Positions 37,896 to 46,403 of a DNA stretch of 64,000 bases are shown here, one piece after another. Within the stretch, counting starts at the first letter, position 1, and every line of letters begins with the position of its first letter. The stretch is from assembly GCF_008710135.1 (NCBI RefSeq), contig NZ_VYKK01000022.1, positions 62,001 through 126,000 on the forward strand, in the 5' to 3' direction. Source of the stretch: Paenibacillus spiritus. GTDB lineage: Bacteria > Bacillota > Bacilli > Paenibacillales > Paenibacillaceae. A program made the translations under genes and the position numbers. The notes under the pieces were generated by a model. It made no database searches. It saw only the letters and a list, made by a program, of their open reading frames with translations, and was not told the origin of the DNA.

Positions 37896-39023
37896 CTATT
37901 CTTCCGCGCTCTTGGGCGCTGCGGCTCCCGTTCGGTTCTTGTGCAGCCACAAGGCGTATTCAAGCGGGCGGACCAGCGCCTTGCGGTAGGTCTCGCGGTC
38001 GCCCGAGCGGGCGAATACTTCCCGTGCCGGCTTCGGGTTGACCTCCAGGATATAAATATTCCCGCTGCGGTCGATGGCCAGATCCAGCGCCAGTTCGCAG
38101 AGCGCCCCGAAGGTCCCCTCCAGATAAGCGGCCGCATCCAGACCGAGCCGTTCCGCCGTCTTCATCGTCCGTTCGGCCGCTTCCGCGCTGCCCAGCCACT
38201 CGCGCAGCAGCCGGGAAGCGCGGACTGCGCGCCCCCCGCCGTGCAGATTGGAAGTGACGCTGCCCGCCGGCCCGACCCGTCCGGCCATGCCGGTCAGCTC
38301 CCAGGCACCCTGGCTGTTCTTCTGCACGAGCATCCGGTAATCATGGACGCGTCCGTTCGGAAGGCGCAGCGGAATGCCCTCCTGAATCAGAAAGCGCCCG
38401 CCGAGACACCATTGCCGGACTACCGATTCCAGCCGGGACAGGGTAACCTTCCGCGGGGGAATCATCCGCCGGTTCTGCCGGCGTCCTTGGATGTCGTACT
38501 GCCCTCCTCCGGAGAGGCGCTCGATGCGCAGAATGCCCCGTCCCCCCGTCCCGTTGATCGGCTTGAGATAGAGCACCCGCGCTTTTCCGAGCATACGCTT
38601 CAGGTCTGCGGAGGAATGGTACAGCACCGTCTCCGGCAGATGGGGCCGGAAACGGCTCTTGTTCCAGAACGTCTGATGAATGGTCCACTTGTTCCGCAGA
38701 GGACGATTCAGGAAGGTGAGATGACCGTAGCGGGAGCGGAATCTTAGCAGCTGCTGGAAGCGCTCGGAGCGCTGGATGCGGCAGCGGTCGTAGATCATAT
38801 CGGGAAAAGCCCGCCACCGCCGGGTCCACTGGCCCGTGGCCGGGTCTACGGTCAGGGCATGAATCTTGTCGCCGCCGGGGTTTACATCCATCGGCGTGAA
38901 GACATAGACGTCGAGCCCCAGTCTGCGTCCCTCGGCAATCATTTTGCGGTAGACGGGTTTCTCCTCAAGTTGTCTGGCTTGGTTCAAATAGAGGGTCAGA
39001 ATGCCCAATACAGGTTGCGGCAT
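37896..39023 (-). CDS. YheC/YheD-family ATP-grasp spore-coat protein, copy 5 (short type)
   Basis: 375 residues. N-terminal region (VLGILTLYL, VYVFTPMDVN), then ATP-grasp motifs YLKPINGTGGRGILRI (about 152-167), QEGIPLRL, DYRMLVQKN (about 228) with VTSNLHGGG (about 259) and a metal-site end LALDLAIDRSGNIYILEVNPKP (about 312-333). Family B. subtilis YheC/YheD is endospore-coat associated; the reaction is unknown but ATP-grasp folds usually ligate a carboxylate to an amine. Last of five; 6 bp after copy 4. The tail after the metal site is Ala-rich. Confidence 0.92.
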   Translation of the reverse strand: MPQPVLGILTLYLNQARQLEEKPVYRKMIAEGRRLGLDVYVFTPMDVNPGGDKIHALTVDPATGQWTRRWRAFPDMIYDRCRIQRSERFQQLLRFRSRYGHLTFLNRPLRNKWTIHQTFWNKSRFRPHLPETVLYHSSADLKRMLGKARVLYLKPINGTGGRGILRIERLSGGGQYDIQGRRQNRRMIPPRKVTLSRLESVVRQWCLGGRFLIQEGIPLRLPNGRVHDYRMLVQKNSQGAWELTGMAGRVGPAGSVTSNLHGGGRAVRASRLLREWLGSAEAAERTMKTAERLGLDAAAYLEGTFGALCELALDLAIDRSGNIYILEVNPKPAREVFARSGDRETYRKALVRPLEYALWLHKNRTGAAAPKSAEE

Positions 39024-39029
39024 CGCAAT

Positions 39030-40154
39030 TCACCTTCTTGCTTCTATAGGATGGCCGGCCAGATGGCGGGAATACTGGATGATCCGTTCCAGCGAGAGCC
39101 TGCGGATCGGCGGTTCGTCGAATTTCATGGGCCGGGAATTGGCTTCGAAGAACCAGAGGCCCCCTTCTCGGTCCACGCCCAGGTCCATCGACATTTCACC
39201 CAGTGCGGAAGCGCTGGCCCGCTCGATCTGCCGGGCAATGAGCAGCGCGGCCGCAGGCACGCTTCGGAGGATGGCGGCGCTCTTCTCGGCTCCGAAGACG
39301 TTGTCCAGCAGCTTCCCGGGCTCCTCGATGCTGCCTCCGCGCGGCACATGGGTAGTAATGCTGCGCGCGCCAGCCAGCCGGGCGCCGATGCCGGTCACGC
39401 CCCAGACCCCGCGTCCGTTCTTCTGCACAAGCACGCGCAGATCGAACGGACGGCCCCGGTAGGAGGAGAGGTCAATCGCCTGCTGGACAATATAGCGTTC
39501 CTGGCCTCTCTCCCGGCTGATCCGGTTCCAGAGCCGCTCCATCGATGCGGCCTTGTACGTTAGATGCCGCTGCCCGGACTGTACCTGAAGCCGGTAGGGC
39601 AGAGGGTGGTCGGGAACATATTTCAGCCGCATGATCCCTTTTCCGGCTTTGCCCGCTTCAGGCTTGAGATAGAGGGAGGAATGATTCTTCAGCAGAGCCT
39701 TCAGCGTAGCTGCGCTCCGGAGCTTGCGGGTCTCGGGGACATGCCGGGCGGTCGCCCGGGAGCCCTTCAGCCACTCGAACAGATCCCATTTATTGAAGAA
39801 ACGCGGATTGAACAGACGGATGGAGGGATGCTCCAGCAGCTCGCCGATTTTGCGGAGCACCGCCGGCTTGCTCTCCTGTTCCCGGCTTGGAATCCGGTTA
39901 TAGACGACCTGCGGCAGCGGCATAATCTCGGTATTCCAGTTCCGGCGCCCCGGGCCCGGCACATAGCCGATGATGTCCGTCTCCTCCAGCCGCAGATCGC
40001 GGACGGTTACCACATACACGAGGCAGCCGAGCTCGCCTCCCGCCCGGATCAGATCCCTGAAATTGCGCCGGTTGCCCCGGAACTGCTTCACCGGATGGCT
40101 TGTCGTCAGAATGGCGACAACCGGCCGTCCCTCGGCTGAAGTCGAATGGATCAC
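39030..40154 (-). CDS. YheC/YheD-family ATP-grasp spore-coat protein, copy 4 (short type)
   Basis: 374 residues. GTG start at 40154 overlaps the copy 3 stop by 4 bp (GTGA). N-terminal domain VVAILTTSHP ... PLPQVVYNRIPSRE (about 88). ATP-grasp: LYLKPEAGKAGKGIMRL (about 160), FDLRVLVQKNGRGVWGVTG (about 240) and MSMDLGVDREGGLWFFEANSRP (about 320). Seems catalytically complete. Confidence 0.92.
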   Translation of the reverse strand: MIHSTSAEGRPVVAILTTSHPVKQFRGNRRNFRDLIRAGGELGCLVYVVTVRDLRLEETDIIGYVPGPGRRNWNTEIMPLPQVVYNRIPSREQESKPAVLRKIGELLEHPSIRLFNPRFFNKWDLFEWLKGSRATARHVPETRKLRSAATLKALLKNHSSLYLKPEAGKAGKGIMRLKYVPDHPLPYRLQVQSGQRHLTYKAASMERLWNRISRERGQERYIVQQAIDLSSYRGRPFDLRVLVQKNGRGVWGVTGIGARLAGARSITTHVPRGGSIEEPGKLLDNVFGAEKSAAILRSVPAAALLIARQIERASASALGEMSMDLGVDREGGLWFFEANSRPMKFDEPPIRRLSLERIIQYSRHLAGHPIEARR

Positions 40155-41524
40155 AGATCATCCCTCCTGCGGAACTTGCTGAGGTACAGGCAGTGTTCCA
40201 GGATATGCTCAACGGAAGCTTTGCCTTCAGCGCGCAGGGAGGGGTGGCGGAAGATGGAGCGCCCGGGCTTGGCGTTCGCTTCGAACATCCAGATGTTCTC
40301 TTCCTGATCGATGCCGAGATCGAACCCGATTTCCCCGATCAGATGGCGGTGCTGGGCTTCCAGCGCTTCCGCCAGACGGATCGCGGTCGCCTTGGCCTGC
40401 TGGAGCACCTCGTCGGCCCGTGCGCCGAAGACCCGGCCAAGCGCCTGCTGCGGCGTCATCAGCGAGCCCCCGTTCTTCAGGTGCGTCGTCACGCTGCCCC
40501 GCCCGGCCTTCTTGGCGCCGATGCCGACAACGACCCACTGGTTGTTCCCGTTCTTGTGCATATGGAAGCGGAAGTCGATCGGGCAGCCGTCGATTTCGAT
40601 CAGACGGATGCCCTGCTGCACCACATAATTCTGCAGGCTGCGTCCGTGGCGGGACTCCAGCATCCGCATGAGGCTCTCGAAGCTGCCGAAGCGCAGCAGC
40701 ACATTCTTGCCGCCCCGGCGGTAGCGGGCGAAGTAGCCCCGCTTGGGCAGATAGGTCAGCCGGTAGATGCCCATGCCCAGGCTCCCGGCCGACGGCTTGT
40801 AGTAGACAAAATGGTGCCGCTCCAGCATCTCCTTGATGAGCTCGGGAGCAGGATTGCTGTGGGTCTCCGGCACATAGCGGACGGCGGCGGGATCATTCTC
40901 CATCAGCCGGTAGATGTCGGATTTATTGAAGAAGCTCCAGTTGAAGAACGGGATTCTCCTGCGGATGAACCGTTCGCGGAGCTGGCTGATCGCCTGGGAC
41001 GTCTCGGCCCGCCTGCTCGGAAGCCGGTTATAGACGACATCGGGCAGGGGAACGAGCTTGCGCTCGAACCGTCCGGCGGCATTCAGGAAATACCCGTTCA
41101 CCCGTTCCTGCTGCCAGTCGATGTCGCGCGGGGTGAAGGCGAAGATGTAGCACATGCGCCCGCCTTCCCGCAGAAGCTGCTTGATGAACCCGGTGCGCGA
41201 GCCGAACGGGTTGGCGGAAGAGAGCGGACCGTCGGAGAGAATTCCGACCAGCGGCCCGAGCTGAACCTCATCGTTCTGCAGGTTGCGCAGGTAGACGCCC
41301 CCGGTCTTGGGCACCTTGATGGCATGCTGGACGCCGGAGGCGAGGAACAGATGCTTCCCGGCGCGTTTGATCGGCTTGATCACCGCCGGGATCGTATCCT
41401 TGCCGAGCCGGACCCGGATGCTGCGTTTGCCGGACAGCTTCAGACTCTTCATCAGCGAGCCCGAGATGTAGACGACCCGTTCAGGCTTCTTGGTGAAATG
41501 GATGTTGCCAAATGTAAGACCCAT
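40151..41524 (-). CDS. YheC/YheD-family ATP-grasp spore-coat protein, copy 3 (long type)
   Basis: 457 residues, close to the length of B. subtilis YheD. It has an extra ~90-residue N-terminal beta-rich domain (VVYISGSLMKSLKLSGKRSI). Then LGPLVGILSDGPL, PLPDVVYNRLPSRRAE (about 160), FVYYKPSAGSLGMGIYRL (about 242), DFRFHMHKNGNNQWVVVGIG (about 325) and IGFDLGIDQEENIWMFEANA (about 398). RBS GGAGG, ATG 41524; 19 bp after copy 2. The middle copy of the array. Confidence 0.93.
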   Translation of the reverse strand: MGLTFGNIHFTKKPERVVYISGSLMKSLKLSGKRSIRVRLGKDTIPAVIKPIKRAGKHLFLASGVQHAIKVPKTGGVYLRNLQNDEVQLGPLVGILSDGPLSSANPFGSRTGFIKQLLREGGRMCYIFAFTPRDIDWQQERVNGYFLNAAGRFERKLVPLPDVVYNRLPSRRAETSQAISQLRERFIRRRIPFFNWSFFNKSDIYRLMENDPAAVRYVPETHSNPAPELIKEMLERHHFVYYKPSAGSLGMGIYRLTYLPKRGYFARYRRGGKNVLLRFGSFESLMRMLESRHGRSLQNYVVQQGIRLIEIDGCPIDFRFHMHKNGNNQWVVVGIGAKKAGRGSVTTHLKNGGSLMTPQQALGRVFGARADEVLQQAKATAIRLAEALEAQHRHLIGEIGFDLGIDQEENIWMFEANAKPGRSIFRHPSLRAEGKASVEHILEHCLYLSKFRRRDDL

Positions 41525-41543
41525 TTATGAATCCTCCTTAGGA

Positions 41544-42656
41544 TCATTGTCTAGGAAAAGCCGCCGGCCGCCTGGATTGCAGCAGGCAGCGCGCGTACCG
41601 CAGCGGATTCTCGGCCGCCCGGCGTTCGGCTTCGGTGTCGCCCGTCAGCCGGAAGACCGTCCGCCCCGGCTTGGAATTGGCTTCGAGCAGCCAAATGCGG
41701 CCGCCCGGATCGATGCCAAAATCCAGGCCAAGCTCACCCAGCCTGCCGAATCCGGCTTCCAGCAGCGGCGGCAGTCCGGCCGCCGCTTCGCGGACATCGC
41801 GCAGGACGGCGGCGGCCGCCCCGGGCCCGAACTCGGCCGCGAGGAAAGGCTCCGGCGGCACGGCGGTTCCGCCGCCGTGCAGGTTCGAGGCCGCCGTGCC
41901 GGGGCGGCCCAGCCGGACCGCCATGCCGCTGACCGTCCAGCGGGCCCGGCCGTCCTTCTGCGCCAGCACGCGCAGATCGAACGGCCTTCCCGCCGAGTCG
42001 CACAGCGGCAGGCAGGGCTGCAGGAGATACGGTCTGCCGGCGGTGAACCGGCGGACCGCATCTCCGCCCTCCGCTTCGTCTGCATAATCGCGGACGAAGG
42101 AGCGGTTGCCGGCGTCCCGGCCGGCGAGGCGGAGCCCGCCGCCCGGGAGCCGGACGGCGCGAAGCACGCCCCGGCCCTGGGAGCCGGCCGCCGGCTTCAG
42201 GAAGACGCCGTCCTCGCGCTCGGCCAGTATCAGCGCGAAGCCGCGCCCGCTGTAGAGGTGCGTCTCCGGGAGCAGTTCCGCCGCCGGCGATGCGGTGAGA
42301 TGCCGGTGGACGCGCCACTTGTCCGGAAGGCCGCGGGACAGGGGAACGGCTCCCCGCAGGGCGTTCAGCGCGGCGCCTGCGGCGCGGCGCTCCCTGGCGT
42401 CGGCGGGGAAGAAGCGGTTGTAGAGCACGCCGGGAGCCGGAGAGGCGCATTCCTTCCAGCCCGACGGCGTCCGGACGTAGCCGTGCGGGATGGAACCGTC
42501 CGGGGCGACGCCCTCCGGCGGGAAGAGGATCAGCTCGAGGCCGAACCGGGGGGCAAGCTGGCTGAGCCGGGAGGCGAACTCGGGCTCGGTGACGGGTGCG
42601 GGTCCCTGGCCGCGTCCGGTGAGGACGCCAAGCCTTCCGATCATCGTATCGCTCAT
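41544..42656 (-). CDS. YheC/YheD-family ATP-grasp spore-coat protein, copy 2 (short type, very GC-rich)
   Basis: 370 residues, with many Ala/Arg/Gly/Pro codons and the highest GC of the five. GRLGVLTGRG, GVLYNRFFPADARE (about 75), VFLKPAAGSQGRGVLRA (about 148), FDLRVLAQKDGRARWTVSG (about 225) and LGLDFGIDPGGRIWLLEANSKP (about 306) are in place. Start ATG 42656 behind AGGTGG, 8 bp after copy 1. It has diverged most but keeps the nucleotide and metal motifs. Confidence 0.9.
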   Translation of the reverse strand: MSDTMIGRLGVLTGRGQGPAPVTEPEFASRLSQLAPRFGLELILFPPEGVAPDGSIPHGYVRTPSGWKECASPAPGVLYNRFFPADARERRAAGAALNALRGAVPLSRGLPDKWRVHRHLTASPAAELLPETHLYSGRGFALILAEREDGVFLKPAAGSQGRGVLRAVRLPGGGLRLAGRDAGNRSFVRDYADEAEGGDAVRRFTAGRPYLLQPCLPLCDSAGRPFDLRVLAQKDGRARWTVSGMAVRLGRPGTAASNLHGGGTAVPPEPFLAAEFGPGAAAAVLRDVREAAAGLPPLLEAGFGRLGELGLDFGIDPGGRIWLLEANSKPGRTVFRLTGDTEAERRAAENPLRYARCLLQSRRPAAFPRQ

Positions 42657-42664
42657 GACGCCAC

Positions 42665-44035
42665 CTATAAATTGGCCAGATAGCGGCAGTATTGGATCAT
42701 TTGCTTGACGGAGGGACGGATCTTCTGATCGGCATTGAGCGGCGTGTTGTCGTTCTTGGACGGCTTCGAATTCACTTCCAGCAGCCAGACCCGGCCGGAC
42801 TGGTCCATGGCGAGGTCAATGCCAAGCTCCCCGAAATGGGCGGGGATATAGGCTTCGATGCCGCGGGCGATGGCGAGCGACGCTTTCGTAAGCTGGAGAG
42901 TGGCGTTGTCCCGCGTTCCCGCCGGGAGGTTGCTCTTGCTTACCGCTTCTTTGACCGTGCTGAGACTGCCCCCCCGGGCCAGGTTGGAGACAAAATGGTT
43001 ATTGCCTGCGGTCCTGGCGACGATGGAAGTCACGCCCCACTTGCCCGTTCCGTTCTTCTGCACCAGTGCCCGGAAATCGACCGGCCGCCTGCCGACTTCG
43101 ATCAGGGACAACCCCTGCTGGATCTGGTACCGTGTAGTGCGCATCTTGGGAGCGACCGCCCGGAAAAGCTTGGCGAGACTGGGATAGCTGATGGTGCGGG
43201 TCCCGAGCGGCGTGGTGGTCTGGAGACGGTAGCTGCCGCCCTCCTCGCGGGAGATCCGCAGAATGCCCTTGCCGAGACTGCCGCGCACCGGCTTCAGAAA
43301 GACGACCGGATAGTGGGCGCACATCCGTTTGATCAGCGGGAAGCCGCTGAGCGCGTGCGACTCGGGAAGGTAGCGCTGCAGGGCAGGGTCCTGTCTCAGC
43401 GCCTCGAACACTTCGGTTTTGTCGAGGAACTTTTCATTGAAGAAGTGGGTACCGTACCGGGATTTTACTTCCGCAAGGAATTGCTGTACGCTAGGCTTAT
43501 TCTCTGCTTTGCGCGAGGTAACACGGTTATTGATGACGTCGGGCACGGGGAGCTTGCGGCGCTTCCAGCCTCCCTCGTAGATCCAGCCGACGATGCCGGA
43601 GCCGGACGTCTCGAGCGCTTCGGGCGTGAAGAAGCAGACGAAAGCGCCCTGGGCGTGACAGGCGTTCGTCAGCTCGCGGCAGAAGAGGGTGATCGGACCG
43701 AACAGGCGATCCGGATGGTCGGGATACTCCCGGCTGACCAGAACGCCGATCAGCGGCCCGAGCCGGATCGTGCGGGTGCCGGGAACATAGGACATATTCA
43801 GCAGATTTCGGGAATCCCAGCCGGCCCGGCGGGCCAATCCCTCGCTGACGCGCAGATTGTCGGACTTTGGAACCGGTATGACGGTGACATCCTGACGGAA
43901 TGAACCGAAGGCGAGCTGAAGCGGACCGTGAACCGGAATCCGGAGCTTTCGGACGTACTTGTCGCCCAGCATGATGGCGTTCTCCTGAAGAATGCCGGAG
44001 TGTACGGTGTGAACCGGGATTTTGAGCTTTGACAT
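42665..44035 (-). CDS. YheC/YheD-family ATP-grasp spore-coat protein, copy 1 (long type)
   Basis: 456 residues; start ATG 44035 (MSKLKIPVHT) behind AAGGAGATTCAAG, whereas the upstream in-frame codon 44062 has the RBS inside the frame. It is the promoter-proximal gene. It has the N-terminal ~90-residue domain, LGPLIGVLVSREY, PVPDVINNRVTSRKAE (about 172), VFLKPVRGSLGKGILRI (about 250), DFRALVQKNGTGKWGVTS (about 332), LGIDLAMDQSGRVWLLEVNS (about 405). Divergent from yheA across 136 bp; in B. subtilis yheA and yheC/D are neighbours. Confidence 0.93.
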   Translation of the reverse strand: MSKLKIPVHTVHSGILQENAIMLGDKYVRKLRIPVHGPLQLAFGSFRQDVTVIPVPKSDNLRVSEGLARRAGWDSRNLLNMSYVPGTRTIRLGPLIGVLVSREYPDHPDRLFGPITLFCRELTNACHAQGAFVCFFTPEALETSGSGIVGWIYEGGWKRRKLPVPDVINNRVTSRKAENKPSVQQFLAEVKSRYGTHFFNEKFLDKTEVFEALRQDPALQRYLPESHALSGFPLIKRMCAHYPVVFLKPVRGSLGKGILRISREEGGSYRLQTTTPLGTRTISYPSLAKLFRAVAPKMRTTRYQIQQGLSLIEVGRRPVDFRALVQKNGTGKWGVTSIVARTAGNNHFVSNLARGGSLSTVKEAVSKSNLPAGTRDNATLQLTKASLAIARGIEAYIPAHFGELGIDLAMDQSGRVWLLEVNSKPSKNDNTPLNADQKIRPSVKQMIQYCRYLANL

Positions 44036-44171
44036 CTTGAATCTCCTTCCGGTGAGCAGCATGATGCCGGTTGCCTGCTGTCAGGGGGTTCATATCATTC
44101 ATCATATGGAGTCGTTTGCCCCTTGGTGATTGGCCTTGGCGGCCTCCATAGAGAAACGGAGGAACGAAGCA

Positions 44172-44519
44172 ATGAATATTTACGACAAAGCGCATGAACT
44201 GGCGCAAGCCATCAAGGAGAGCACAGAGGTGGCCGACATCATGGCGGCGATGAAGCTGGTAGAAGCGGATCCCGCGAGCCGGGAGATGCTGGACAACTTC
44301 CGCACCAGCCAGCTGGAGCTTCAGCAGCGGATGATGGAAGGCGATATGCCGGCGCCGGAAGAAATGGAGAAGATGGAGAAGCTGTTCGAGGTGTTGAACC
44401 TCAATCTGGGCATCCGCCGTCTCTTTGAAGCCGAGCGCCGCCTGAGCGGTGTCATCGAGGATGTGAACAAGATTATTGCAGAGAGCCTGCAGCATCTGTA
44501 CGGACCGGAACAGGCGTAA
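44172..44519 (+). CDS. yheA: YheA-like protein (UPF0342, YlbF family)
   Basis: 115 residues, almost all helical. DKAHELAQAIKESTEV at the start and MLDNFRTSQLELQQRMMEGDMPAPEE near 38-63 align with B. subtilis YheA, and VNKIIAESLQHLYG closes. Start ATG 44172 with GGAGG 9 nt upstream. YlbF-family members such as YlbF/YmcA regulate RNase Y; YheA itself has no assigned role. Its location next to the YheC/D array keeps the yhe synteny. Confidence 0.9.
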   Translation: MNIYDKAHELAQAIKESTEVADIMAAMKLVEADPASREMLDNFRTSQLELQQRMMEGDMPAPEEMEKMEKLFEVLNLNLGIRRLFEAERRLSGVIEDVNKIIAESLQHLYGPEQA

Positions 44520-44596: not shown

Positions 44597-44878
44597 ATGA
44601 AGAAACGCAGCAAAATCAAACACGCGCTCAGCCTGACCGTTGCCCTTGGAATGCTGCTCTTTGCCATCCCCCAGCTGTCGGTCCGGCAGTCCGGCCCCGT
44701 CTTTGCCTTCGGTATCGCCTGGGCGGTATTCGCCCTGATGGTTATTGCCGCCCATCTGCACTTTCTGATCGGTGTCGATGCCGAACGGGCGAAGCGCCTG
44801 GAAGCCGTCCGCCGCGCGAAGCTCTCGCGCTGGGAGGACGATTGGCGGAGAGAGAGAAGCGTGGCGGGCAAGCTGTAG
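44597..44878 (+). CDS. small two-helix membrane protein (possibly YtpI-like)
   Basis: 93 residues. Lys/Arg-rich start MKKRSKIKHALS, two hydrophobic segments (about 10-28 and 37-56) and a basic tail with ERAKRLEAVRRAKLSRWEDD. RBS GAAGGAG upstream of ATG 44597. B. subtilis has the small membrane gene ytpI beside ytoI, which makes YtpI possible, but the sequence does not prove it. Confidence 0.7.
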   Translation: MKKRSKIKHALSLTVALGMLLFAIPQLSVRQSGPVFAFGIAWAVFALMVIAAHLHFLIGVDAERAKRLEAVRRAKLSRWEDDWRRERSVAGKL

Positions 44879-45068: not shown

Positions 45069-46403
45069 ATGGAGGGACAAGGCGATGCCGTTACCAAGCA
45101 CGAACAGCTGCTTCAGCATATCGAGACGCTGAAGGTCGGCACGAAGATCTCCGTCCGCAAGCTTGCCCGGGAGCTGAACGTGAGTGAAGGGACGGCGTAC
45201 CGGGCCGTCAAGGAAGCGGAGAATTTGGGAATCGTAATTACCAAGGAGCGAATCGGCACCGTTCGGATCGAGAAGAAACCCCGCAACATTTCAGAACAGC
45301 TTACGTTCGCCGATGTTGTGGAGATTGTGGAAGGCCATGTGCTGGGAGGAGCGGCCGGCCTGGACAAGCACTTGCACAAATATGTAATCGGTGCGATGAA
45401 GGTGGACGCCATGATCCGTTATATCGACGCGGACAGCCTGCTGATCGTCGGCAACCGGGACGATGTGCACTCAATGGCCCTGGAACAGGGGGCCGGAGTC
45501 CTGGTAACGGGCGGGTTCGGCACAAGCCGGGAGGTCAAGGCATTCGCGGACGAGCTGTCGCTTCCTGTCATTTCTTCCCGGCACGATACCTTCACCGTCG
45601 CCTCGATGATCAACCGGGCGATCTTCGACCGGCTGATCAAGAAGAAGATCATGCTGGTCGAGGATATCGTGGGCCGCAAGCCGCGCCCTGAGCTGCTGAA
45701 GATCACCAGCACGGCCGCGGAGGTCCGGCGCCTCTCCCGGGAGAGCGGAGACACCCGGTTCGCGGTGACGGACGAATGGAACCGGGTTATCGGAATCGTC
45801 GGCCGCCGGGATGTGGAGGAGCTGGAGGACTCGGCTTCGATCGAGAAGGCGATGGTCCGCGGGCCGGTGACGGCCGGACTTTCTACCTCGCTGGCTTCGG
45901 CCGCCCAGATCATGATGTGGGAAGGCATCGACTTTCTCCCGATTGTAGACCGCAGCCGCAAGCTGGTCGGCGTCGTCACGCGCCGGGAAGTGATGCAGAG
46001 CCTCCGGGATGCCCAAGGGCAGCCGCAGCTTGGGGAGACATTCGACCATCTCATCTGGAACGGATTTGCGGAGGACCGGGACGAAGAGGGACGCTTGTTT
46101 TTTCACGGCCTGATTACTCCGCAGATGGCGACCGACCTCGGGACGATTTCGGAGGGTGTCCTGTCCACACTGATGACCCAAGCCGCTTTTCGGGCGGCCA
46201 AGGACAGAACGGGAGGCGACTATGTGCTCGACAGTCTCTCGACTTACTTCGTTCGTCCGGTCCAGATCGAGGATCCGATTCTGATCCGTCCGCGGCTTCT
46301 GGAGAGCAGCCGGCGCACCTGCAAGCTGGAGATCGAGGTGCTGCATCTCGACAATCTGGTGTGTAAAGCCGTTATGCTGCTTCAGTCCCTGGATCACGGT
46401 TGA
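45069..46403 (+). CDS. ytoI: YtoI-like HTH-DRTGG-CBS-thioesterase protein
   Basis: 444 residues with four modules: N-terminal GntR-like winged HTH (10-65; SVRKLARELNVSEGTAYRAV), DRTGG domain (about 75-185; GVLVTGGFGTSREVKAFADE), CBS pair (about 195-310; EDIVGRKPRPELLKITST, VVTRREVMQSLRDAQ) and a hot-dog thioesterase-like end (about 325-440). This order is that of B. subtilis YtoI and fits a ligand-binding regulator; the ligand, perhaps an adenine nucleotide at the CBS pair, is unknown. RBS GGAGGTG, ATG 45069. Followed by the polysaccharide block rather than ytrI. Confidence 0.9.
   Translation: MEGQGDAVTKHEQLLQHIETLKVGTKISVRKLARELNVSEGTAYRAVKEAENLGIVITKERIGTVRIEKKPRNISEQLTFADVVEIVEGHVLGGAAGLDKHLHKYVIGAMKVDAMIRYIDADSLLIVGNRDDVHSMALEQGAGVLVTGGFGTSREVKAFADELSLPVISSRHDTFTVASMINRAIFDRLIKKKIMLVEDIVGRKPRPELLKITSTAAEVRRLSRESGDTRFAVTDEWNRVIGIVGRRDVEELEDSASIEKAMVRGPVTAGLSTSLASAAQIMMWEGIDFLPIVDRSRKLVGVVTRREVMQSLRDAQGQPQLGETFDHLIWNGFAEDRDEEGRLFFHGLITPQMATDLGTISEGVLSTLMTQAAFRAAKDRTGGDYVLDSLSTYFVRPVQIEDPILIRPRLLESSRRTCKLEIEVLHLDNLVCKAVMLLQSLDHG

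Follow-up and report, generated by a model that had tools for sequence, protein, structure and literature searches.

A predicted late-sporulation operon of five ancient YheC/YheD-type ATP-grasp ligases in Paenibacillus spiritus

A 64,000-nucleotide stretch of the Paenibacillus spiritus genome (contig NZ_VYKK01000022.1, positions 62,001 to 126,000; hereafter the window) carries on its minus strand, at 37896-44035, five intact tandem ATP-grasp genes of the Pfam YheC/D family, which we number slots 1 to 5 in the order of transcription. We give slightly more than an even chance to the reading that they are a late mother-cell operon of RimK-like ligases, which would join amino acids to coat proteins or to a coat peptide. 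The coordinates, strand, lengths and gaps (8, 19, -4 and 6 bp) listed by a first-pass annotation of the sequence were all reproduced (Table 1). All five proteins match the PF14398 profile at 214-270 bits, against a curated cut-off of 26.8, and no NCBIfam model scored above its own cut-off for any of them. Mechanical calling of open reading frames (ORFs) starts slot 1 at 44062, giving 465 amino acids (aa); a ribosome-binding site (GGAAGGAG) favours the start at 44035 instead.

The five slots are distinct from one another at 25-33% pairwise identity, so the recent, near-identical copies that the first-pass annotation had set out as the case against itself were not found. Named relatives closest to slot 3 are from Paenibacillus, at up to 89% identity. 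A first sample comprised 20 loci of the same genus and order. A second 20, picked around strong family matches, included 2 from the window's own family and 18 from other families in the class. Seventeen of the first 20 have five genes and three have four; the array is indeed longer than the Bacillus-type pair with which it had been contrasted, but it is not peculiar to this genome. In a quick tree without bootstraps, every slot formed a single group across the class (SH-aLRT 96-100). This supported tree held 104 of 186 rows, namely the proteins of 23 loci plus one own-genome paralogue, and left out three short own-genome paralogues (L006, L007 and L009). Slot labels of L049, L051, L055, L059, L066 and L075 were assigned manually once a first tree was available; L055, L059, L066 and L075 are in the supported tree, and all six entered the residue counts and the slot profiles, making the slot-profile result partly circular for these loci. 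L074 and L076 were excluded from the per-slot residue counts and profiles.

Applied to 121 loci (the window, 40 fetched and 80 named), the slot profiles read 1-2-3-4-5 in 94 and 1-2-3-4 in 16; the others are partial, some of them at contig ends (L085, L100, L106 and L143), apart from one with an additional slot 5 and L074, which is unclear. Slots 1-4 appear with clear margins in 13 of the 18 strong-match picks from other families of the class. Slot 5 was seen within the order to which the window belongs and, among these 18, at three loci (L062, L066 and L075). Because order and slot identity recur across families, the array goes beyond chance. One two-gene locus, L059, has as neighbours a YlbF-like gene and one resembling DUF445 (the second judged by eye); we take it to be Bacillus-type, as these neighbours and the gene lengths resemble those of the B. 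subtilis yhe region. Its first gene, in the YheC place, falls with slot 2 on a long branch, and its second, in the YheD place, with slot 3. By this tree placement, the Bacillus-type two-gene locus is a short case of the five-slot row. Ratios of nonsynonymous to synonymous substitution (dN/dS) against three near relatives were 0.07-0.40, a rough estimate with dS near or above 1; they were lowest in slot 3, the most conserved slot, and highest in slot 2, the fastest evolving (0.26-0.40 in three pairs, one partial).

Judged by their residues, all slots look like working enzymes. K-P-x-x-G is present in all five, as previously noted. D-x-G-I/V/M-D, also ascribed to all five, holds for slots 2, 3 and 4, whereas slots 1 and 5 read DLAMD and DLAID; the acidic residues and the asparagine of this metal motif are kept throughout. 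Across 175 aligned proteins, Lys201, Lys243, Asp317, Arg319, Asp402 and Asn417 (slot 3 numbering) are invariant (175/175), and Glu415 and Glu398 occur in 99%. The role of each of these residues is that known from ATP-grasp enzymes. The window's five proteins keep the near-invariant columns (two Lys, D-x-R, the acidic and Asn metal ligands); missing catalytic residues, another outcome the first-pass annotation had held against itself, were not seen in the alignment. At sixteen alignment columns the residue is well kept within slots but differs between them. Five of them (348, 350, 400, 421 and 422) lie at most four residues from an invariant one, measured along the sequence rather than in a model, and jointly separate the five slots, with no single column sufficing. 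From such columns we infer that the slots may have different substrate pockets.

Predicted models of slot 3 and slot 5 (predicted local distance difference test, pLDDT, 88 and 92) show an ATP-grasp fold and best match RimK, LysX/ArgX and glutathione synthetase. Sequence searches of the Protein Data Bank (PDB) with slot 1 or slot 3 alone returned nothing significant, and a profile of 59 proteins found glutathione synthase (E 0.0003). Slots 1 and 3 have some 90 additional N-terminal residues, for which a brief comparison found no known fold. With separate conserved clades, intact catalytic residues and folds closest to amide-forming ligases, the earlier description of five different proteins of ligase type is supported. 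RimK, the poly-alpha-glutamate and ribosomal protein S6 ligase, is a single enzyme with 18-21% identity to the slots; LysX/ArgX and glutathione synthetase are metabolic enzymes working on a carrier protein or a small peptide, and the TTL/TTLL tubulin ligases are eukaryotic and act on tubulin tails. B. subtilis yheC-yheD, a spore-coat-associated pair that we compared through L059 and not through the B. subtilis sequences themselves, shares the family PF14398, and the genes of the Bacillus-type locus group with slots 2 and 3 beside a YlbF-like neighbour. It differs in having two genes, reported to depend on sigma-E with SpoIIID, whereas the window has five behind a sigma-K-like promoter.

Upstream of slot 1, close relatives share an unusually conserved block holding CACC, 16 bases and CATATGATG. 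We searched for the pattern mACm-16/17-CATAnnnT, which follows the sigma-K consensus and was chosen after the block had been seen, so that the search was not blind. It occurs in 107 of the 111 loci (of 121) with a placeable slot 1 start and in 31 of 35 diverse loci, against 72 of 11,100 random, mostly coding stretches of the same loci. The strict form CATAnnnTA was found in 18/111 loci, 13/35 diverse loci and 13/11,100 random stretches, and a looser pattern in 105/111 loci versus 4.8% of shuffled upstream sequences; with related loci and a post hoc pattern, such odds are not a probability. A sigma-E pattern was found upstream of slot 1 in 0/111 loci, and an earlier, first sigma-E-type expression in 0/41. 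A long fuzzy pattern for the conserved block had no match in L040-L078 and none in the majority of the more distantly related named loci. The accessible part of PMC517825 gives a spacing of 14-16 bases between a 5-base -35 and a 10-base -10, with which the window's spacing fits. For mother-cell expression of the array, what we observed is conservation of sigma-K-like sequence only. A structured RNA in the same region was considered and rejected (folding z-score 0.65; a single Rfam match at E 0.71, far below the gathering score).

Several same-genus relatives have, between slots 4 and 5, a gene of ~170 codons that weak Pfam matches identify as a GNAT (one of three queries just above cut-off). 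GNAT matches were obtained in 22 of 24 same-genus genomes and in 4 of 15 other genomes of the order; the gene is present in 72 of 121 loci, always directly after the slot 4 gene. A whole-genome search of the window's genome gave no match to this gene, and six bases stand in its place. The GNAT is likewise missing from the array of P. sinensis (L084) and from the loci grouped around P. polymyxa and P. pabuli (L107-L117 and others). In the Paenibacillus loci L089 and L094, slot 5 is seen only as a ~45-residue piece after the GNAT.

A second candidate partner is PF14395, by its Pfam name an amide ligase, of the glutamine-synthetase type. In the window's genome a PF14395 gene adjoins cotE on contig C40, followed by a mutS-like gene (mutS judged by eye). 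Hand comparison found PF14395 in 36 of 40 relatives, the window's genome included, and at most 1.6 kb from cotE in 36 of 36; two of these pairs have split frames. The B. subtilis control genome had no PF14395 match. By a hand tally uncorrected for the relatedness of genomes, all 140 class genomes with PF14395 also have PF14398, and at least five PF14398 matches, among those listed, occur in 121 of the 140 versus 1 of 31 PF14398 genomes without PF14395. Of 250 class genomes searched at E 0.001, 164 have both PF14398 and SpoIVA, 7 PF14398 only, 15 SpoIVA only and 64 neither, in a comparison made by hand that includes a few matches below curated cut-offs. In the wider phylum, PF14398 occurs in 66 of 199 sampled genomes, 5 of the 66 from this class. 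Outside the class we examined 20 loci (18 genomes), chosen for tandem or fused copies: CotE is found in 8, PF14395 in 11 and a GNAT in 3. L173, L174 and L175 share the order cotE, slot 1, PF14395 ligase, slots 2-3-4, GNAT; inside the class, L074 reads cotE-Y-Y-PF14395-Y. L173-L175 thus unite all three enzyme kinds of the operons that combine ATP-grasp, COOH-NH2 ligase and GNAT genes, whereas in the window's genome PF14395 is unlinked and the GNAT absent. ATP-grasp genes linked in operons with other ATP-grasp genes, COOH-NH2 ligases or GNATs have been seen before, according to the part of PMC4431377 available to us, which cites Iyer et al. 2009 for this. In three genomes outside the class (L166, L167 and L170), two ATP-grasp ligases are fused into proteins of 911, 931 and 935 aa, which suggests that neighbouring ligases can work as a pair. 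L180, also outside the class, has ten YheC/D-type matches in one 20-kb cluster, the last of them weak.

Slots missing from an array can be lost or moved. When we queried the whole genomes G027, G035 and G207, which keep the other four slots, with slot 2, no clear counterpart emerged: the best scores (196, 200 and 206 bits) all fell on slot 5 genes. Against 35 other slot 2 proteins the same query scored at least 228 bits in 33 and 144 and 149 bits in two; because two genuine slot 2 proteins score this low, these genomes may hold a very divergent copy. On these scores slot 2 appears lost in the three genomes. The slot 1 query found in G029 a 43% identical slot 1-like gene elsewhere in the genome, outside the array, so that its absence there is a move and not a loss.

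In the reading we prefer, the five genes would make up a single operon, expressed late in sporulation, whose products are ancient carboxylate-amine ligases of the YheC/YheD ATP-grasp type. Each ligase, presumably RimK- and tubulin-ligase-like, would use ATP to activate a carboxylate (the side chain or C terminus of a coat protein, or a growing peptide) and join an amino acid to it, with an acceptor or donor particular to each slot. Where there is a GNAT, it would add a cap or an acyl group to the product, and what is modified in this way would form part of the CotE-dependent coat. It is also conceivable, if doubtful, that the ligases work one after another from a small precursor and yield one peptide-like metabolite or polymer of the coat or cortex, such as a teichuronopeptide- or glutathione-like compound. 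The tight operon, the two-ligase fusions, the PF14395 and GNAT partners, and glutathione synthetase and D-Ala ligases among the closest folds would all suit a single product, as would the successive ligations that linked ligases often catalyse, with a possible GNAT cap, in the accessible text of PMC4431377. Yet G027, G035 and G207 keep four slots and have no clear slot 2, unlike an all-or-none pathway, and no precursor-making enzyme was recognised beside the arrays, whose neighbours are only partly annotated. With slot 2 apparently lost in three genomes, a single product that needs every one of the five ligases becomes less probable. Since slot 1 of G029, absent from its array, is found elsewhere in that genome, this argument is only modest, and the move slightly lowers the amino-acid-to-coat reading and slightly raises the one-product one; the multi-step product proposed by the first-pass annotation is thereby weakened only in part.

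Other explanations fare worse. Purely structural coat proteins with an ATP-grasp fold that is no longer catalytic would agree with B. subtilis YheD, which surrounds the spore and binds strongly to itself in two-hybrid assays (PMC7911427, as far as its accessible part goes) and is the only one of these proteins shown to lie in the coat in the literature examined, but catalytic residues are kept in all five slots across 175 proteins, even in fast-evolving slot 2, and we consider this improbable. We give even less credence to use of the fold for other chemistry, for example phosphoryl transfer: both models give higher scores with the top entries of RimK, LysX/ArgX and glutathione synthetase, and the linked partner PF14395 is named an amide ligase. 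Recent tandem duplication for dosage would account for one family standing in tandem; we reject it as next to impossible, because the slots are only 25-33% identical and each forms one group across the class.

Several points weigh against our preferred reading. In the window's genome the array has neither CotE nor PF14395 next to it, and 9 of the 20 chosen loci outside the class lack both. The matches to RimK, LysX/ArgX and glutathione synthetase come from predicted models at 14-21% identity; synapsin and inositol-phosphate kinases, with the same fold, trail by just a few Z units, and Foldseek itself ranks D-Ala ligases first for slot 3 and glutathione synthetase first for slot 5. The literature examined, in the parts accessible, contains no yheC or yheD phenotype, and Anoxybacillus flavithermus is without yheD in the available portion of PMC3533761. 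The part of PMC517825 seen lists B. subtilis yheC/yheD as sigma-E genes stimulated by SpoIIID, not as sigma-K genes; timing may therefore differ between species.

A wider claim can be put only tentatively, and as a whole we think it rather unlikely: spore-formers from several Bacillota classes would share a dedicated non-ribosomal amide-writing system, in which up to five ATP-grasp ligases of fixed identity, with PF14395 by cotE and a GNAT, add distinct peptide or amino-acid side chains to coat proteins in the manner of tubulin ligases, and of which B. subtilis-type species kept only two ligases, a reduction that would account for how little the model organism has revealed.

By its appearance the array is a single transcription unit, and the promoter predicted before it is of a sporulation type. 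The earlier label of a coat-associated operon took its coat part from the family name. The close neighbours scanned were LysE-like, YlbF-like, SpxR-like and one protein of no family, and these four include no known coat protein (the rest of the window lay outside annotation). For the divergent YlbF/YheA-like gene, the ORF caller starts at 44130, and an ATG at 44172 has a ribosome-binding site. At 44597-44878 (+) lies a 93-aa protein, membrane-like by eye and matching no Pfam family over cut-off, which 27 of 41 loci keep upstream of the array in divergent orientation. It is followed at 45069-46403 (+) by a DRTGG-CBS-4HBT protein that looks like SpxR but scores under the cut-off of that model; 22 of 41 loci have it in the same place. 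Downstream of the array, CotJC-like genes occur in 10 of 41 loci and CotJB-like genes in 9 of 41, judged by eye and not by profile (for example L040 15926-16495 and L041 13266-13580). Slot 4 ORFs outside the order (L060-L073, L075) reach 427-523 aa by mechanical start, with an extra N-terminal part that gave no match to a profile of the slot 1/3 domain; inside the order most are shorter. Elsewhere, the window's genome has four extra PF14398 copies (C1:67390-68055, C13:1344-2054, C44:4395-5183 and C1:20363-21121), three of them short and one with a match running across a TAA. The C44 copy sits between gyrA- and gyrB-like genes (judged by eye), a place where a YheC/D family gene is reported as typical of paenibacilli in the accessible part of PMC5627462.

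Table 1 Features of the five-slot array and its surroundings (positions in the window)
Feature	Position	Strand	Evidence
Slot 1, long YheC/D-type ATP-grasp, 456 aa	42665..44035	-	PF14398 261 bits; own orthologous clade, support 99
Slot 2, short ATP-grasp, 370 aa	41544..42656	-	PF14398 214 bits; clade support 98
Slot 3, long ATP-grasp, 457 aa	40151..41524	-	PF14398 270 bits; clade support 98
Slot 4, short ATP-grasp, 374 aa, GTG start	39030..40154	-	PF14398 263 bits; clade support 100
Slot 5, short ATP-grasp, 375 aa	37896..39023	-	PF14398 256 bits; clade support 96
Slot 1 ribosome-binding site (GGAAGGAG)	44043..44050	-	Supports start at 44035
Sigma-K-like -35 (CACC)	44125..44128	-	Pattern and conservation
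Sigma-K-like -10 (CATATGATG), 16 bases past -35	44100..44108	-	Pattern; block conserved in close relatives
Empty GNAT place between slots 4 and 5, 6 bases only	39024..39029	-	Locus comparison
Divergent YlbF/YheA-like gene	44172..44519	+	PF06133 90.5 bits; same side in 20/41 loci, including L059

The family and its coat association in B. subtilis were already known. Iyer et al. reportedly predicted in 2009 that PF14398 and PF14395 are tied to CotE and the spore coat, and the Pfam descriptions are reported to carry the same spore-coat prediction for these families; the five-slot array is a fuller member of an already predicted kind of coat-associated ligase family. Titles and opening abstract lines in the open-access literature, with four papers that name yheC or yheD set aside (PMC7352945, PMC10744016, PMC8005191 and PMC2749860), describe neither the five-slot orthology nor the GNAT place nor the promoter, and none concerns the array or a YheC/YheD activity; nor did we find the product described, in agreement with the first-pass annotation, which had itself missed the GNAT place, the cotE/PF14395 link and the promoter. 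Two sporulation screens (PMC12700454 and PMC4703394) have no yheC/yheD in their main text, and yheD appears in a variant table in the part of PMC12893347 available.

If our reading is right, spore coats carry amide-linked modifications that are hardly visible in B. subtilis work. The slot map would then tell which gene to remove to see each modification. In species with the whole set, a family of unknown function is in this way made testable: there are five orthologous slots to probe, along with a predicted promoter and, as predicted partners, the GNAT and PF14395.

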